A stretch of 20,894 nt of DNA, from positions 1 through 20,894 of the IMG/VR virus record IMGVR_UViG_3300026097_000128; one strand, written 5' to 3'. The notes beneath the pieces are model-generated. The model saw only the letters and a program-made list of their open reading frames with translations. It was not told the origin of the DNA and did not search any database. This stretch comes from a virus. How positions within the stretch are numbered: the first letter of the stretch is position 1; each line of letters starts with the position of its first letter. Below, one piece after another: positions 3,426-13,423 of this stretch. The position numbers and the translations under genes were made by a program.

Positions 3426-3597
3426 CTTGGGCATCCTCCAGTATGTTCTGAACGCGGGCCGAACAGTTGGCCAGTCTGTTCTCGAGGGACTTGATAGTTG
3501 CCTCTTGGCGATCCAGTTTCCGATCGGCATACCACGCATATCCGCCCGCCAAAACAGTCGTGATCGCAAGCGCGGATATGAGGTACTTGGTTATCAT
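3340..3597 (-). CDS. i-spanin, inner-membrane subunit (Rz-like)
   Basis: An 85-residue protein with one N-terminal membrane helix (about residues 4-23, YLISALAITTVLAGGYAWYA), then a periplasmic coiled coil (DRKLDRQEATIKSLENRLAN) and an acidic tail. This is the layout of an i-spanin. The coiled coil is short for Rz but usual for compact marine phages. It starts in an ATGA overlap with the endolysin stop (3594-3597), and the o-spanin starts within its 3' part in another frame. The call rests on topology plus the overlapping lipoprotein gene, not on sequence motif. Confidence 0.78.
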   Translation of the reverse strand: MITKYLISALAITTVLAGGYAWYADRKLDRQEATIKSLENRLANCSARVQNILEDAQDDATVDDPSLFDVPSDWMLPTGTGAGGD

Positions 3598-4211
3598 CTG
3601 TCCCCGTCAGCCCACTTTTTGATGCGTTCGCGCATGATCCACAGAGCCAAAAGACCAACCGCTCCGGCAACCCCGAGGGCCGCGAGCTGGGCGTTTCCAT
3701 CAAGAGTCGCGAGAGCCCCAATGCCGCCACCGGCGGCGGTCGCCAGCTGAGCAGCTGAGGCCTGCACGGTCTTGGATTGTGCCACCGATGTGCGCGGCGC
3801 GGGCGCGGGCTGGCCGGTCGTCCAGTCGCTCTCGGGATAGACATCCCGCTTCAGCTCGAAATGCGGTCCGTCGCGGAACTTGGACCAGCGTCCACCCCAC
3901 GTAATCGCCACGCCTTCTGCCTTGGCGGCAGCCTCAACAGCAGGACCCAGCTTGTGATACAGGGGCCATGCGAACTCAGCCCCGTTCGGCCCAATCGGAA
4001 GAAGATCGACTGCATGGCCGGTCAGGTGTCGGCTGTTCATGGTCTGGGATGCTCCGGAGGCCACAAGCTGGCGCTGACGCGCCTCGCTGCGCACGCCTTC
4101 GATGACGATGAAATCCAGAGGACTTTCTTGCAGCGCCCGGTCGATGACACGGCGAAGGTCAGGGTGAATACCCGCCAAGTTCTTCTTGCTTCGGCTGCTA
4201 TATTTCCGCAT
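3594..4211 (-). CDS. Endolysin, M15 family peptidase, with C-terminal membrane helix
   Basis: A 205-residue protein. The N-terminal 125 residues carry the zinc peptidase signature of the M15 (VanY / L-alanyl-D-glutamate endopeptidase) family: SRHLTGHAVDL gives ligands His62 and Asp69, and DGPHFEL gives catalytic Asp114 and ligand His117. It would cut the peptide stems of peptidoglycan. A Pro/Ala linker (about 133-160) leads to a hydrophobic helix (about 176-193, LAALGVAGAVGLLALWIM) followed by basic residues (RERIKKW). No N-terminal signal is visible, so the C-terminal helix may anchor the enzyme at the inner membrane or act in export. The start at 4211 has GAGG 7 bases upstream. It is followed directly by the spanin pair, completing a lysis cassette. 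No separate classical holin gene sits beside it. Confidence 0.88.
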   Translation of the reverse strand: MRKYSSRSKKNLAGIHPDLRRVIDRALQESPLDFIVIEGVRSEARQRQLVASGASQTMNSRHLTGHAVDLLPIGPNGAEFAWPLYHKLGPAVEAAAKAEGVAITWGGRWSKFRDGPHFELKRDVYPESDWTTGQPAPAPRTSVAQSKTVQASAAQLATAAGGGIGALATLDGNAQLAALGVAGAVGLLALWIMRERIKKWADGDR

Positions 4212-5273: not shown

Positions 5274-6038
5274 TTACGCAGCGACCTCAGTCCATTCGTC
5301 CGATGTATCCGGATCAATCTCAGTCCAGCCATCGGCCGTCCCGGGATCAACCAAGACCCAACCCCCAGCAGTCCCAGTGTCGATAGAAGACCAAGCGTTG
5401 GCCGCACCGGGGTCAACAGGAGTATAACTTGTACCGGGCGTTGGCACAATACGGCCCCACACCCGGACGCCGCCAACCTGCCCAGTGGCAAAAACACCGG
5501 TCAGCTGGACCGTGGCCCCACCCGTGACGGTGACTGATCCGACAGCGGCTGAGGCAGAAACGCCCGTGAGCGGCACGTTTGCATCTGCCGTGACGGCAAC
5601 GCTACCAACCTCTCCAACGGCTTCGACGCCCGTGACAGGGACCTCAATGACAAGGTCAACCGTGACAACGCCCACCTCGCCAGTGGCCTCGACGCCCGTG
5701 ACAGGTGCATCCGCTCCGGCCCGACCAATGGCTGTCCCAACCTCGCCGGTGGCCTCAACTCCAGTGAGGGGCACGTTGGCCCCGCCAGTGACATCTACGC
5801 TGTTTGTGGCGCCGGTTGCCTCAACCCCCGTGACCGGGACGTTCGCTCCAGCCGTTACAGCAACAGAACCGGCGGTTCCGGCGGCTTCGACCCCTGTTAC
5901 CGGGACATTTGCGTCGGCAGACACAGTGAGAGTGCCGACCGTCCCCGTCGCAGAAACGCCCGTTAGTAGAACAACAACATTTGCAGAGCCGGTGTCATCG
6001 GCCAGCGTTGTTGAAGCTAAGGGCGAAAAGCCGAGCAT
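5274..6038 (-). CDS. Fibre-like protein made of eight 22-residue repeats plus 11-residue Trp repeats
   Basis: A 254-residue protein. After a short head (MLGFSPLASTTLADD) it has eight tandem repeats of exactly 22 residues, each with a core like ANVPVTGVEATGEVG. The TGV triplet falls at residues 26, 48, 70, 92, 114, 136, 158 and 180 with no slip. From about 205 on, a second repeat of 11 residues places Trp at 216, 227, 238 and 249 (for example GWTEIDPDTSDE). The residue pattern predicts regular beta structure, for example a beta-solenoid or stacked trimeric shaft. No enzyme motif is present. It sits between the collar fibre and two tail-assembly-like genes, so a fibre shaft or virion decoration is the likely role. 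The family is not one I can name. Confidence 0.7.
   Translation of the reverse strand: MLGFSPLASTTLADDTGSANVVVLLTGVSATGTVGTLTVSADANVPVTGVEAAGTAGSVAVTAGANVPVTGVEATGATNSVDVTGGANVPLTGVEATGEVGTAIGRAGADAPVTGVEATGEVGVVTVDLVIEVPVTGVEAVGEVGSVAVTADANVPLTGVSASAAVGSVTVTGGATVQLTGVFATGQVGGVRVWGRIVPTPGTSYTPVDPGAANAWSSIDTGTAGGWVLVDPGTADGWTEIDPDTSDEWTEVAA
5451..5978 (-). repeat. Eight tandem 66-base coding repeats
   Basis: The 22-residue protein repeats of the gene at 5274-6038 are encoded by tandem 66-base units with diverged copies. On the plus strand, variants of a short GCCTCGACGCCCGTGACAGG core recur at 66-base steps. Repeat number could change by recombination or slippage. Confidence 0.8.
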
Positions 6039-6048
6039 GGCCTAGCTC

Positions 6049-6402
6049 TTAGCCCAGCAGCGCGTCGAGCGTCAGCGCCTTGAGCTCATCAGGTGTGGAA
6101 GCCGCGTCGATGCGGGGATCGTCTGTGACACCTCTCAGCGCCTGCTTGGCAGCTGAAACGCCAGCTTGCGCGTCTGCGTCGCCGGTCTCGGCAGCACGGA
6201 ACCAGTCGGCGTCCAATTTGGCGAATCTGGGTTCACGTTCGGAACGCAACTTGTCGCGGTGAATCTCTCGGGCTTTCACCATGTCGACTTCGACCACGTC
6301 GCCGTCGAACTGCCAAGCGCCACGGAACGTGCGGTCCTGCGGCACAGTGACGGACGATGCGTCGCGCACATCGCCATTGATGTTGATATACGTCTGAGCC
6401 AT
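6049..6402 (-). CDS. Tail-fibre assembly/chaperone-like protein
   Basis: A 117-residue protein. The start at 6402 (MAQTYININGDVRDA) shares bases with the stop of the upstream gene (TGATG) and is preferred over an ATG 27 bases earlier that lies inside that gene. The core VPQDRTFRGAWQFDGDVVEVDM, followed by a charged helix (KAREIHRDKLRSEREPRFAK) and an ending PDELKALTLDALLG, is a pattern I associate with small phage tail-assembly proteins that help fibres fold or mount. The upstream protein ends with a related DRSLRNAW motif. Its place just before the fibre genes supports the role. The family name is not certain and no experimental function is implied. Confidence 0.55.
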   Translation of the reverse strand: MAQTYININGDVRDASSVTVPQDRTFRGAWQFDGDVVEVDMVKAREIHRDKLRSEREPRFAKLDADWFRAAETGDADAQAGVSAAKQALRGVTDDPRIDAASTPDELKALTLDALLG

Positions 6403-6860
6403 CACGCGGCCTCCTGCTTGATCTTCCATGCGTTCCGAAGGGACCGGTCCGTCGGGACCAATTCTACAGGAACAATCCTCAAAATGCTACGGTTTCCCCG
6501 GTAGTCGCGCCACACCCGCGGCGGCAGGTCTTTCATGACCAGATATTCCATCGCCTCTTCCTCGGTCATGGCCGGGACGGGCGGCGTCTCGTGCAGCAGG
6601 TGACCGCGCGTGTGTCGCACGAAACCATCGCGCTCTTCGTCCTCGCGCAGCGCCCAGTAGACCTCGACCGGGGGCAAGATACCGCCATGCATCGCCATCG
6701 CCAGCCATGTCGGGCTGGGGCGTGTAACCTTGGCGGGCTCGTCCGGGGCAGCAGGGTCTTCCCACAGGATAGCGTAGTTACCTTGGGGTAAGTCCGTGTG
6801 CTGATCCTTGAAGATCATCTCGCGTTCCCAGAGTTTGTATTGGGTGTAGTCTATGGTCAT
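6402..6860 (-). CDS. Conserved phage protein, possible tail-assembly partner
   Basis: A 152-residue protein, MTIDYTQYKLWEREMIF, with no membrane segment or enzyme motif. It starts in an ATGA overlap at the first of the shared array junctions, so it is translated from the ribosome-binding site written in the end of the preceding fibre gene. Its C-terminus (VPTDRSLRNAWKI, then KQEAA) matches the DR(T/S)xRxAW motif near residue 26 of the next protein, so the two probably share a domain or ancestry. Function is not recognised. Between the fibre array and the repeat fibre, a fibre-assembly role is plausible. Confidence 0.55.
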   Translation of the reverse strand: MTIDYTQYKLWEREMIFKDQHTDLPQGNYAILWEDPAAPDEPAKVTRPSPTWLAMAMHGGILPPVEVYWALREDEERDGFVRHTRGHLLHETPPVPAMTEEEAMEYLVMKDLPPRVWRDYRGNRSILRIVPVELVPTDRSLRNAWKIKQEAA

Positions 6861-7237
6861 GCGGGGTCTCCGAAGGCAGCTATGGAGATCAAAACGGGGT
6901 CTGCAACTACGCTGGCCTGAAAGTGGTTTATCTTACACTTTGATGCGGTTTTACTTCCGGTGTCTTCCTGCGTCAAAAACGCCCCGTTTCCAACGGCCGT
7001 AAATTGAGACCCCAGAACAACTGCGTAGCTTGTTCCCGAAAAAGCGTTGGTAAAGTTTGGCTCTTGAGTGCCAACGCCGAGATCAGTGATACTCGAAACA
7101 TTAAAACTTGCGGTATTGGCTGGAACACCTGCTGCGTAAATCGAGTAAGACCACGCCTTCGCGGTCCCCTCAAGCACCGCCGAGGCCGGGACGCTATCTA
7201 TGCCGTCGCCGAAGTTCTGTGCGTTGATCGTACTCAT
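6857..7237 (-). CDS. Small fibre-like protein, array member 7 (last)
   Basis: A 126-residue protein. A variable head (MSTINAQNFGDGIDSVPASA) is followed by the shared array domain: GTAKAW, then SFNVSSITDLGVG, then a TNAFSGTSYAVV segment. It ends GDPA, where the other members end GDLA. The start overlaps the previous stop (ATGA at 7234-7237). The AKAW ... SSITD.G.G pattern is frequent at the tips or shafts of fibres of marine phages, where it is usually part of a longer protein; here it stands alone. Role as an exchangeable fibre tip or virion decoration is inference. Confidence 0.6.
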   Translation of the reverse strand: MSTINAQNFGDGIDSVPASAVLEGTAKAWSYSIYAAGVPANTASFNVSSITDLGVGTQEPNFTNAFSGTSYAVVLGSQFTAVGNGAFLTQEDTGSKTASKCKINHFQASVVADPVLISIAAFGDPA

Positions 7238-7590
7238 GCTAGGTCTCCCATATTCAGAAGCGAAACCGGATCAGCGTCAGCCGTACCCGAGCTAGTGGTA
7301 TGCAGGGAGTTGTAAGTAGTGGTCGCATACTGTGAAACGCGCTGATCGGATGTAACAGCGGGAATTTGATGCGCCCCGGCAACAGAATACGTTGTGTCAG
7401 CCATGAGATTTGTCAGGTTGACGTTGTAATTGCCTGTGCTGTTGTCTGCCAAACTGGACACGTTAACGCTTCCGTCAATGGTCGATCCGCCACCGGAAAA
7501 CTTTACCCGCGACTTCGGCACCCCATCGGTCAACGAGTAACTCGTGCCACCTGCGGCGGGCCGTGCGTTATCTACTGCTATTGTACTCAT
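7234..7590 (-). CDS. Small fibre-like protein, array member 6
   Basis: A 118-residue protein beginning MSTIAVDNARPAAGGTSY. The AKAW box is replaced by KSRVKFSGGGS, a diverged version, but the following SVNVSSLADNSTGNYNVN and LTNLMADTTYSVAG blocks show membership of the array family. The end is GDLA. Both ends are coupled through the shared GGAGACCT...ATGA junction (7587-7601 upstream, 7234-7248 downstream). No catalytic motif. A fibre-tip or decoration role is inferred from its relatives and place. Confidence 0.6.
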   Translation of the reverse strand: MSTIAVDNARPAAGGTSYSLTDGVPKSRVKFSGGGSTIDGSVNVSSLADNSTGNYNVNLTNLMADTTYSVAGAHQIPAVTSDQRVSQYATTTYNSLHTTSSGTADADPVSLLNMGDLA

Positions 7591-7934
7591 GCTAGGTCTC
7601 CATGTGCCGCACCCGTTACGTTTACGTCTATCAGCGCTCCCCCAGAACCCCTAGTCAAGCAGCGGACAACAGAAAGAGAAAGAGTATTCACCGCAACAAA
7701 AACGTTGTCGTCTCTGGAATTACCTATCGGCGCAAAACTTGCTGAAAAAGCATCCGTAAAGCTCAAGTCTTGAATGCCTGTACCTATATCAGAAAGGGAG
7801 GACACATTGTAACTCACTGCTAACGCAGGTGTGTTTGTGTAATTCCACCAAGCCTTCGCAGCACTCTGCCCCGTCAGCGTAACAGGGCCAGTCCCGGCGG
7901 CATCGCTCAGCGTGTTTACATGAAGTTCAGACAA
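7587..7934 (-). CDS. Small fibre-like protein, array member 5, low GC
   Basis: A 115-residue protein, MSELHVNTLSDAAGTGPVTL (the VNTLSD..GTGPVTLTG head is common in marine phage fibres), then AAKAWWNYTN, SYNVSSLSDIGTGIQ, and an end GAAHGDLA. It overlaps the previous gene by 8 bases at 7927-7934. Its base composition is lower than that of the neighbours: hand counts give 26 G+C of 60 in 7681-7740 and again in 7741-7800, against 38 of 60 in the capsid gene at 15601-15660. This supports separate origin of the cassette. Function as for the other members is inferred only. Confidence 0.6.
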   Translation of the reverse strand: MSELHVNTLSDAAGTGPVTLTGQSAAKAWWNYTNTPALAVSYNVSSLSDIGTGIQDLSFTDAFSASFAPIGNSRDDNVFVAVNTLSLSVVRCLTRGSGGALIDVNVTGAAHGDLA

Positions 7935-8388
7935 TGGTCAGTGTCCCCCCGCTGGTGACCGTTAGCGTCACGCCGCTGGCCACGGTCAACGGACCCGTCG
8001 CCGAAGCATTCTCGGTGGCGCCAATGGTCACGTCGGTGTTGAGCGTCTGCTCGTTCACCCGGAAGATGTCTCCCGCCCCTGTAGCTGGCCCCACAGTCCC
8101 ACGGTCGCCCTTGAAATAGCCCGCCGTGGCCGCCCCTGTTTCAAACGTAGTGTACGCCACAATCTCGACGGAGTCACCCGCAGTCGCCCCGCTGCTCAGA
8201 ACCACGTCAGAGCCGTTGCTGGCAGTATAATCGGTGCCGTTCACCAGATGCACACCGTTGAGGTACACATCGAGGAACCCCGGCGTGTATCCACTTGTGG
8301 CGAAACTCGTCTGACTGGCCGTCGCGGTGAACGTGTCACGGGTCTGAGACGCCTGCGGTGTCGGGACGTTGCCTATGTATCCGCTCAT
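7927..8388 (-). CDS. Fibre-like protein with N-terminal adaptor domain, array member 4
   Basis: A 153-residue protein. The start MSGYIGNVPTPQASQ at 8388 is chosen over one 18 bases upstream because it shares MSGYIG with the previous gene and has the array ribosome-binding site (GGAG, 7-base spacing). Residues about 25-90 (YTPGFLDVYLNGVHLVNGTD, then SGATAGDSVEIVAYTTF) form an adaptor-like beta domain that is also present in the previous gene. Then come a collagen-like GDRGTVGP piece and a C-terminal GPLTVASGVTLTVTSGGTL block. It lacks the AKAW domain and the GDLA end, so it is a head-only cassette. It probably belongs to a fibre shaft or adaptor. Confidence 0.65.
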   Translation of the reverse strand: MSGYIGNVPTPQASQTRDTFTATASQTSFATSGYTPGFLDVYLNGVHLVNGTDYTASNGSDVVLSSGATAGDSVEIVAYTTFETGAATAGYFKGDRGTVGPATGAGDIFRVNEQTLNTDVTIGATENASATGPLTVASGVTLTVTSGGTLTIV

Positions 8389-9074
8389 GCGAGGTCTCCA
8401 AAACAAGACGTTGAGAGTGTGTCAATATCCCTAAGAGACCCGCTCCAAAGCACGTTGTCAAACTTGTACGCCGACGCGCTTGTGGCACCTGCACAAACTA
8501 TGTCACCCCCTCCAGCCCCGGCTGGGTTAGAAAAATACCCGCTCGCGGCAATGGCGAAGTTGATAGTCCCGAACGCGCTTGTAACGGAATTTGCGTACGT
8601 GCCCGTCCCGTTGTCCGTCATCGAGGTGATATTGTAGCTGTCGCGAATTGCCACAGTCCCGCCCCCGGTGCACAAGGCCCAAGCCTTCGCGGTCCCGTTG
8701 GTCACAACATCGGAGTCGATCGTTATCGTTCCGTCTGAGAAGGTCGCAGACTGCAACTTGCCTGACGTTGTCAGGTCTCCGGTCATCGTATCGCCGCCCT
8801 TGCTGACTGCATCAGCCGGGCTAAACGTGGCTCGGGTCGTGACAACGATCTGGTCGCCGCTCTCAGCTGAGCTGGTCAGCGAGATCGAGCTGCCGTTGGT
8901 AGCCGTGAAATCCGTGTCTTGGGTCAAGCGCACGCCGTTGTGGAACACATCGACGAACCCGGGGGTGTACGCCACCCCGGAAATCGTGCTCGTCGTGGAC
9001 GTCACGTTGACGATCTGCTTGCGCTCAGCACCCGAGGAGACGACCGATGCGCGTGATCCTATATATCCGCTCAT
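8385..9074 (-). CDS. Two-domain fibre-like protein, array member 3
   Basis: A 229-residue protein, the longest of the array. The N-terminal half (MSGYIGSRASVVSSGAERKQ, then YTPGFVDVFHNGVRLTQDTD) is a paralogue of the head domain of the next gene. A linker with GGDTMTGDLTTSG, a motif of many tail fibres, joins it to a C-terminal copy of the array domain: NGTAKAWALCTGGGT, SYNITSMTDNGTGTY, ending CFGDLA. It thus combines in one chain the two modules that other members carry separately, which points to fusion or splitting of cassettes. Start and stop use the shared junction (9071-9085 and 8385-8399). Confidence 0.68.
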   Translation of the reverse strand: MSGYIGSRASVVSSGAERKQIVNVTSTTSTISGVAYTPGFVDVFHNGVRLTQDTDFTATNGSSISLTSSAESGDQIVVTTRATFSPADAVSKGGDTMTGDLTTSGKLQSATFSDGTITIDSDVVTNGTAKAWALCTGGGTVAIRDSYNITSMTDNGTGTYANSVTSAFGTINFAIAASGYFSNPAGAGGGDIVCAGATSASAYKFDNVLWSGSLRDIDTLSTSCFGDLA

Positions 9075-9436
9075 GCGAGGTCTCCATTCAAGGTCATACT
9101 AAACCTAGCCACATCGGCTCTACCCTCCGTACTGACGCGGGCCACACCAATACTCAAACGGGTCGTCGTGCGACCTTCATCAACCGTGCTTGGAAAGCCG
9201 ACGTTGGCCGAAGTTGAGCCAAATACGCTATTGAAACTTGAGTTTAAAAACGAATTGGTGAACCCCACGTCATAGATTCCCACACCATTGTCCGTCACAG
9301 AAGACATGTTGTAACTGCCCAGATGTTGCGCAGTCCCGCTTCCTTGCAGGGTGGTCCAAGCCTTCGCGGTCCCCTCGACCACAACGGCTCCGGCAACGCC
9401 CTGAGAAATGTCGATCAGCTCTGTTGCGCGGCTCAT
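9071..9436 (-). CDS. Small fibre-like protein, array member 2
   Basis: A 121-residue protein, MSRATELIDISQGVAGAV, then EGTAKAWTTLQGSGT, SYNMSSVTDNGVGIYDVGF, TNSFLNSSFNSVFGS, ending TLNGDLA. The order AKAW box, SYN-SS-TD box, TN box is the array pattern. The DNA for the AKAW box (plus strand 9356-9373) is identical over 18 bases to that at 8679-8696, which shows recent exchange or strong conservation. It is coupled to both neighbours by ATGA overlaps. Confidence 0.62.
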   Translation of the reverse strand: MSRATELIDISQGVAGAVVVEGTAKAWTTLQGSGTAQHLGSYNMSSVTDNGVGIYDVGFTNSFLNSSFNSVFGSTSANVGFPSTVDEGRTTTRLSIGVARVSTEGRADVARFSMTLNGDLA

Positions 9437-9762
9437 GCGAGGTCTCCACTCACAGCGACACCAATGTTAGCCACATCTGCGAAAATGCCGCTTGCGTACG
9501 CCAGCAGGCTCATAGAAGACGTTGAGTAATCGGCGGTGTAATACCCGGCATCTGCGAAAGCATTAACTTGTCCACCAGTAAACCGTGGGTAATCCACAAC
9601 TGACATATTGTTTGTTAGGTTTGCTGTAGTAACGCCTGTGCCACCGTCCGTAATGCTGGTTATATTGTAGCTTGTCAGTGCGGTTGCTGTACCCGTCTGG
9701 TCTACATTCACCCAAGCCTTAGCCAATCCATCCCGATCAGCAATTTCACGAGTATTGCTCAT
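9433..9762 (-). CDS. Small fibre-like protein, array member 1 (first)
   Basis: A 109-residue protein, MSNTREIADRDGLAKAW, then SYNITSITDGGTGV, LTNNMSVVDYPRF, ending AVSGDLA. The head is short, so the AKAW box starts at residue 14. Its start shares bases with the stop of the upstream gene (TGATG at 9762), and the upstream sequence GGAGCAGACCTGATG is a variant of the array junction. No catalytic motif is present. A role as fibre tip or decoration protein is inferred from the family pattern. Confidence 0.62.
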   Translation of the reverse strand: MSNTREIADRDGLAKAWVNVDQTGTATALTSYNITSITDGGTGVTTANLTNNMSVVDYPRFTGGQVNAFADAGYYTADYSTSSMSLLAYASGIFADVANIGVAVSGDLA

Positions 9763-10070
9763 CAGGTCTGCTCCATCACGCTCAAGATGACATCCGCCGA
9801 AGCTGCGGTGTCGCTGGTCACGACCACCGTGTCACCTGTCTCCAGAATGATCTTGCCGTCAAGAACAGACAGCGCGGAGTTTGCCGGAATCGGAGCGCCC
9901 TTGACGACGTAGACTCCTGCGCCCTGCACATCCACAGCGATCTGGGAAGTCTCGACATTGGCGACGCTGAGACCAAGCGCAATCGCTGTCGTGCTTGCAG
10001 GGACCGTGTAGACGGTCGTCGCGCCTGTTCCAACCCCGCTCGAGGTGTAATTCTTAAACGTGTTGGCCAT
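9762..10070 (-). CDS. Small conserved virion protein
   Basis: A 102-residue protein, MANTFKNYTSSGVGTGATTV, with VYTVPASTTAIALGLSVAN and PIPANSALSVLDGKI. I recognise this as a family frequent in uncultured marine phages, beta-rich, with the look of a small capsid- or tail-bound protein. It has no membrane helix or catalytic motif. A GGGGTGA ribosome-binding site lies before the ATG. It heads the fibre array and is coupled to it by a TGATG overlap. Its exact place in the virion is not known to me. Confidence 0.6.
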   Translation of the reverse strand: MANTFKNYTSSGVGTGATTVYTVPASTTAIALGLSVANVETSQIAVDVQGAGVYVVKGAPIPANSALSVLDGKIILETGDTVVVTSDTAASADVILSVMEQT

Positions 10071-13286: not shown

Positions 13287-13423
13287 TTCTTCGCCTTGGT
13301 TTTTCCGCCACGCATCATCTTCTTTGGGTTGCCACCGCGCATCATCTTCTTGGCGTCACCGCCGCGCATCATCTTCTTCGCGGTGCCCTTTTTTGCCGTC
13401 ATCTTACGGGGTTTCATAGCCAT
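13283..13423 (-). CDS. 46-residue KKMMRGG repeat protein
   Basis: A very small gene with ATG at 13423-13421 and TGA at 13285-13283. It encodes a 46-residue protein with three tandem 9-residue units, AKKMMRGGD / AKKMMRGGN / PKKMMRGGK, between a basic head (MAMKPRKMTAKKGT) and tail (KTKAKK). It overlaps the end of the previous gene by 20 bases and the next start by 4 (ATGA). That tight coupling and the shared KKM..GG theme with the protein at 11781-12050 make it a real gene rather than chance. Almost only Lys, Met, Gly, Arg and Ala are used. Function unknown; a DNA- or capsid-binding peptide is a guess. Confidence 0.65.
   Translation of the reverse strand: MAMKPRKMTAKKGTAKKMMRGGDAKKMMRGGNPKKMMRGGKTKAKK
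13306..13386 (-). repeat. Three tandem 27-base coding repeats
   Basis: The plus strand shows three copies of a unit with core CGCATCATCTTCTT followed by a GCCACCGC-like or TCACCGCC-like piece. They encode the KKMMRGG units of the small gene at 13283-13423. Coordinates are approximate. Confidence 0.75.

Follow-up and report, generated by a model that had tools for sequence, protein, structure and literature searches.

Why would a row of divergent phage tail-fibre proteins finish on almost the same four residues? The question arises in a 20,894-base IMG/VR virus record (hereafter the window), a 20.9-kb structural fragment whose genes lie mostly on the minus strand and encode phage structural proteins. 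Seven short fibre genes run there from position 9762 down to 6857, and six of the seven match PHROG 11355, 'tail fiber protein', a KAW-domain tail-fibre family (hidden Markov model E-values of 8e-10 to 1e-8). At six minus-strand sites in this array one gene ends and the next begins within a 15-base joint with the consensus GGAGACC(T/C)NGCATGA, which encodes Gly-Asp-Leu/Pro-Ala-stop. We consider it very probable that this is a multi-fibre array with exchangeable, lectin-like tips, in which the DNA that bounds each tip on its 3′ side also supplies the ribosome-binding site for the gene that follows.

In every joint of the window GGAG, the Shine–Dalgarno sequence (SD), stands seven bases ahead of the ATG, and stop and start overlap as ATGA. 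This is the structure of an NTGA overlap, with the next start overlapping the stop (as ATGA or, elsewhere, as TAATG) and the SD lying within the upstream gene. The initial annotation of this DNA had described the joint as protein end, stop codon, SD and next start in one, a description that holds at all six sites. It had also called the 15 bases the same at six junctions, which is exact for three of them; the other three differ by one base, two having A for C at the wobble position of the Leu codon and one having CCC (Pro). Invariant bases number 13 of 15, and shuffled versions of the window never gave seven joint matches at up to three mismatches (mean 0.95). Among the last four residues Gly, Asp and Ala are invariant, and Leu is kept in five of the six proteins. 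Measured against the first fibre protein the others reach only about 31–33% identity, and neither leftover paralogy nor shared ancestry is therefore enough to account for the conserved joint. The series is broken once, where the gene at 7927–8388 ends in LTIV and its neighbour at 7587–7934 starts at an overlapping TTG.

Occurrence of the joint and movement of the heads

Fibre gene borders had been named as the place to look for the joint in other phages, and an exact scan of IMG/VR viral contigs for GGAGACCTNGCATGAG found it there, at a minimum of 120 loci, nearly all of them KAW arrays. The matches listed are nearly all in-frame ends of KAW-domain proteins of about 120 amino acids (aa) followed by another fibre gene, a handful being due to chance; among these matches the scan loci hold at least 355 KAW open reading frames (ORFs), 344 of them with a GDLA end. 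Since an exact scan is biased towards the very motif it looks for, a neighbouring gene served to collect a second sample. The capsid relatives of the window (80 loci) carry no KAW array and were therefore unusable as an unbiased sample; the conserved neighbour gene at 6402–6860 was used instead (alignment A2) and yielded 209 further KAW ORFs from 61 loci. GDLA ends 178 of these 209, and 199 are followed by an overlapping ATG start, with one more (L264) followed by an overlapping GTG. The joints are of two types, ATGA and TAATG, the latter with a 10-base spacing.

Five such joints stand in a single array of HMO-2011, a cultured phage of SAR116; Microcystis phage Mel-JY33 has two, and Nostoc phage Nsp-JY18 has a GSLA variant. 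The degenerate motif GGAGAYYTNGCATRA occurs 37 times in ten whole records, on a single strand in each, and read backwards it occurs in none of the ten. A single-protein search with the window gene at 9071–9436 returned no relatives, a scan of genome contigs with gene 6402–6860 returned none either, and a Pfam search gave no family.

The arrays hold a fixed order of position-specific stalks. Between genes at the same position the stalk starts are 0.86–1.0 identical, with identity declining toward the C-terminal head, which is about 0.3 identical, and rising to 0.82–0.97 in the joint; a hypervariable segment thus lies between conserved motifs, as in the T-even gp38 adhesin. Some heads are nearly identical across different positions and genomes. 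Among 62 head pairs with at least 75% identity over at least 200 nt and both flanks readable, 39 (27 independent clusters, 47 contigs) are similar in the head only, with unrelated DNA on both sides. The 5′ border of the swapped heads lies at or just ahead of the KAW codons, where the DNA is also partly conserved, and the 3′ break falls at the joint, at positions −1 to +8 relative to the stop in 18 of 20 cases, so that exchange with breaks at the motifs, again of the gp38 type, is seen. The prediction that cassettes swap exactly at the joint is borne out in this respect, but what moves is the head, with the KAW motif at one end and GDLA at the other, and not a whole gene cassette that is added or removed, the order of stalks being fixed. 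One head was observed twice in a single array in only one case (locus L247, at 846 and 4696; 76% identical), on different stalks.

The sequence of the joint follows the gene that comes after it. The stop codon (TGA or TAA) matches the class of the downstream gene in 458 of 461 joints, and the Leu codon tracks that class beyond locus effects, to a degree reached in 0 of 2000 within-locus permutations. The joint therefore acts like a leader for the gene downstream, and it is the head that moves.

What the head may do is suggested by its fold. The AlphaFold2 model of the protein encoded at 9071–9436 is a confident beta-sandwich (predicted local distance difference test score, pLDDT, 86.9), and among viral proteins it matches tail fibres and phage proteins that are uncharacterised. 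Among solved structures its best matches include the Pam1 and phiAB6 tailspike tips, the R1 pyocin fibre (foot) and H-type lectins (VIA Z 8.0, 7.5, 5.4 and 5.4); a profile search against PDB chains gave no match. As the structural scores are middling, we infer a carbohydrate-binding, lectin-like tip from the model, and its role would be to bind a receptor.

In our reading, each array gene, encoding a short tail fibre or adhesin, combines an N-terminal stalk specific to its position with a variable, presumably lectin-like head of about 100 aa at the C-terminus, and the last four codons of the head (GDLA) double as the ribosome-binding site for the gene downstream. GGA (Gly) and the G of Asp form GGAG, the remainder serves as spacer and the stop overlaps the next ATG (ATGA or TAATG). 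SD, spacer and stop behave as if they belonged to the downstream gene, and the head is the exchangeable part. We propose that heads have been replaced by recombination, possibly through homology-driven crossover and recombination enzymes, with the KAW motif and the GGAGACCT joint as its two short, conserved borders. Since the 3′ border doubles as the next start signal, any head that ends there would keep the array translated and, presumably, translationally coupled; at the protein level, too, the tetrapeptide is now maintained (Leu, Ala). Judged from the sequence comparisons, tips appear to have passed from gene to gene and from virus to virus with translation kept intact.

RNA signal, peptide and rival explanations

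Were GDLA conserved purely as a protein feature, such as a trimer or chaperone contact made where the last strand ends, with SD and overlap reflecting ordinary tight packing, any GGN codon would serve for Gly. Yet in the second sample the Gly codon of the joint is GGA in 187 of 199 cases (94%), as opposed to 34% within the bodies of these genes. Likewise, GAC encodes Asp in 116 of 180 (27% elsewhere) and CTC encodes Leu in 33 of 195 (3% elsewhere), enrichments of about two and about six times; the binomial values for these codons are extreme, but the sequences, from 60 loci, are not independent. In the same sample the Asp of the joint can be replaced by Glu, Ala, Thr, Val or Gly, with GGAG usually retained, and the next start almost always follows, in agreement with the earlier proposal of an RNA signal in the joint. 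Where no overlapping gene follows, KAW proteins end in ...VLG, ...IFG, ...IFR, ...VITR or ...SIIR and almost always lack GDLA. The sharpest case is locus L220, where the downstream gene is 91% identical to that of the window, yet the upstream gene is a fused fibre ending in VITR, with a separate SD. Outgroup phages with an overlap retain the RNA signal, as GGAGG or GGGGG, within codons for different peptides (GGNS, GGR, GGL, GGQQ), and the MPYIGK gene of HMO-2011 (L128, 4389–4850) ends in YWSIV, with GGAG in another frame at the same 7-base spacing, and ATGA. That GDLA is found almost only at overlaps is thus attributable to the RNA constraint. At two further loci (L104, 833; L238, 2720) the head ends in GDLGET or GELGET, and a second GGAG two codons later seems to have taken over from the first as SD for the next gene.

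The initial annotation had gone further and suggested that the conserved end may exist for the RNA signal and not for the protein. This part is contradicted by how the residues vary: Leu, Asp and Ala change synonymously while the residues are kept. Leu codons that begin with T have a purine in the third position in a ratio of 126:1, those that begin with C in a ratio of 26:44; therefore the Leu residue itself is conserved, in CTN and TTR codons alike. Ala persists in TAATG joints even though its third base is free there and varies. A GDLA end without a usable downstream start, proposed as the case that would show selection on the peptide, does exist in one lineage (L255/L259), where GDLA persists though the next ATG lies beyond the reach of the SD; in L260/L263, DLA persists where the SD has shifted behind the stop. 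The purely protein-based explanation accounts for these persisting ends, and given the codon usage and the outgroups we regard it as improbable. RNA and peptide constraints both act on the joint.

The genes are paralogous and have the PHROG 11355 domain in common, as would be expected if the joints were alike only through recent tandem duplication, with neither selection nor exchange at the joint. But the heads in the window are about 30% identical while the joint bases are almost invariant, and the pattern spans hundreds of divergent cassettes and genomes, which makes this a very remote prospect. More has to be said for a joint kept as a DNA sequence for recombination, its nucleotide identity being maintained as the seed of crossovers between heads: CTC and GAC are over-used beyond the needs of peptide and SD, the choice of Leu codon goes with the downstream gene, the joint is where breaks accumulate and the KAW border, too, is partly conserved in DNA. 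Against it, a stretch of 12–15 bases is little for RecA-type recombination, identical borders would result from selection among rare illegitimate events, and AT-rich genomes use GATTTA freely; on balance we think it rather unlikely. A diversity-generating retroelement, or a site-specific inversion, with the joint as its border would suit a fibre with a variable C-terminal domain, but the heads are about 30% identical over their whole length and move between positions, unlike the outcome of adenine-directed mutagenesis. Reverse transcriptase (PF00078) was found in none of ten records, which include complete HMO-2011 but not the window record, a fragment; the retroelement is therefore disfavoured and we rejected it, scarcely any probability being left for it.

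Several observations weigh against the reading that we prefer, in which exchangeable tips end in the ribosome-binding site of the next gene. GDLA is conserved at the peptide level, with Leu and Ala varying almost only synonymously, and RNA alone is therefore no full explanation. Foldseek against the PDB gave only E-values above 0.1, and VIA Z values of at most 8.0 are middling. The joint differences in head pairs (9/20) are about what is expected at 5% divergence, so that head pairs alone are no proof of crossover within the joint; the argument that they prove a crossover inside GGAGACCT was dropped, as the figure fits ordinary divergence. RecT and Erf models matched nothing in the ten records, so that no phage recombinase was found in them; a RecA-family match was obtained in one of the ten. 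A bolder version, in which the array is an evolved head-exchange system, with a universal joint (ribosome-binding site, stop/start overlap and recombination border) and the KAW border kept by selection, heads circulating between fibre positions and unrelated marine phages, and several interchangeable adhesins on each virion, we put forward only tentatively, the odds being somewhat against it.

The array and its neighbours in the window

All genes of the array lie on the minus strand. Gene 1 (9433–9762; 109 aa; PHROG 11355, E 9.7e-9) is a KAW-domain tail-fibre gene with a GDLA end and leads through joint 1, GGAGACCTCGCATGA (9433–9447), which holds GDLA, stop, SD and next ATG, into gene 2 (9071–9436; 121 aa; E 1.5e-9), the KAW-domain tail-fibre gene modelled above, also with a GDLA end. 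An SD inside the upstream gene (GGAGCAGACCTGATGAG, 9757–9775) also precedes gene 1, and the peptide end there differs (MEQT). Joint 2, GGAGACCTCGCATGA (9071–9085), is followed by fibre gene 3 (8385–9074; 229 aa; PHROG 11355 and 18345), which joins an MSGYIG fibre N-terminal domain to a KAW head with a GDLA end, and joint 3, GGAGACCTCGCATGA (8385–8399), by fibre gene 4 (7927–8388; 153 aa), which has no KAW head and, ending in LTIV, no GDLA, the next start being the overlapping TTG. These two adjoining genes (7927–9074) have the same MSGYIG N-terminal domain, one KAW-headed and the other headless, which looks like the loss or gain of a head. The remaining KAW-domain tail-fibre genes are gene 5 (7587–7934; 115 aa; TTG start; E 8e-10) and gene 6 (7234–7590; 118 aa; E 3.3e-9), both with GDLA ends and closed by joints 4 (7587–7601) and 5 (7234–7248), each GGAGACCTAGCATGA, and gene 7 (6857–7237; 126 aa; E 2.6e-9), with the GDPA end of joint 6, GGAGACCCCGCATGA (6857–6871).

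After the last joint comes a conserved array gene (6402–6860; 152 aa), possibly a fibre chaperone or assembly protein, with a counterpart in HMO-2011 that is 46% identical (alignment A2), and then a second one (MAQTYININGDV..., 6049–6402), possibly a tail-fibre assembly protein, judged by synteny with MAQTYIVDKDG of HMO-2011 and with the IMG/VR arrays. The array as a whole (6049–10070) looks like an inserted island; in a capsid relative (L158, 15455–18404) the genes that flank the array (MAFTGNYM-like, then MLGFSPL- and MPSSYS-like) directly adjoin. Elsewhere in the window we noted a protein of repeats of about 27 residues (V.VTGVEATGEVGTV..., 5274–6038) with no family match, a 27-base tandem repeat of 2.7 copies (13311–13382) in a small Lys/Met/Gly-rich protein with KKMMRGG repeats, and a protein resembling an M15-type endolysin (IHPDLRRVIDRAL..., 3594–4211), judged by eye only.

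Known systems and what the joint would mean

In the T-even distal tail-fibre adhesin gp38, recombination between conserved motifs reportedly swaps adhesin specificity. The motif anatomy of gp38 has been described (PMC6851490). The array resembles it in having variable, presumably receptor-binding segments between short conserved motifs, at which exchange changes the tip, but it has up to about eight separate fibre genes, whole heads move between different stalks and genes, and the 3′ motif doubles as SD, spacer and stop/start of the next gene. The polyglycine sandwich of gp38 is not found, the array heads having no glycine-rich repeats and the model being a beta-sandwich. Boundary (linker) sequences between phage modules are short conserved border sequences thought to guide mosaic exchange; the joint, too, is a short conserved sequence at a module border, but it sits where two genes overlap and serves translation in a defined way.

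Start/stop overlaps of the NTGA kind and translational coupling are common, NTGA being the commonest spacing motif in prokaryotes (PMC12548453). The array joints share the ATGA (−4) overlap and the SD inside the upstream gene. To our knowledge, the residues that carry an SD in an upstream gene are not normally conserved, whereas in these arrays hundreds of paralogues share them as a fixed tetrapeptide. The tail-fibre cluster of Puniceispirillum phage HMO-2011 (GU557055) has the same KAW heads, its five GDLA joints and the same two conserved neighbour genes in the same order, and its deposited annotation does not mention the joint; the capsid relatives of the window, for their part, do not have the array. 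In the literature searched we found no description of HMO-2011 fibre arrays, joints or tandem fibre paralogues, and a search inside papers on HMO-2011-type phages (PMC9038755, PMC6918029) surfaced none of the array or joint.

NTGA overlaps with coupling, and the swapping of tail tips at conserved motifs in T-even phages, are thus already known. What is new is the combination: in large arrays of abundant ocean phages, fibre tips are exchanged at a border that doubles as the ribosome-binding site for the following gene. Marine phages have hypervariable host-recognition genes (PMC3909814), and published work counts HMO-2011-type phages among the ocean's most abundant (PMC9038755, PMC4981710). Should their tips indeed be swappable on a fixed, translation-safe joint, short modules could reveal host recognition and be tracked in metagenomes via a 15-base tag. 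More generally, a conserved protein end that is largely explained by the RNA signal of the next gene is a warning against reading conserved C-termini as protein function.

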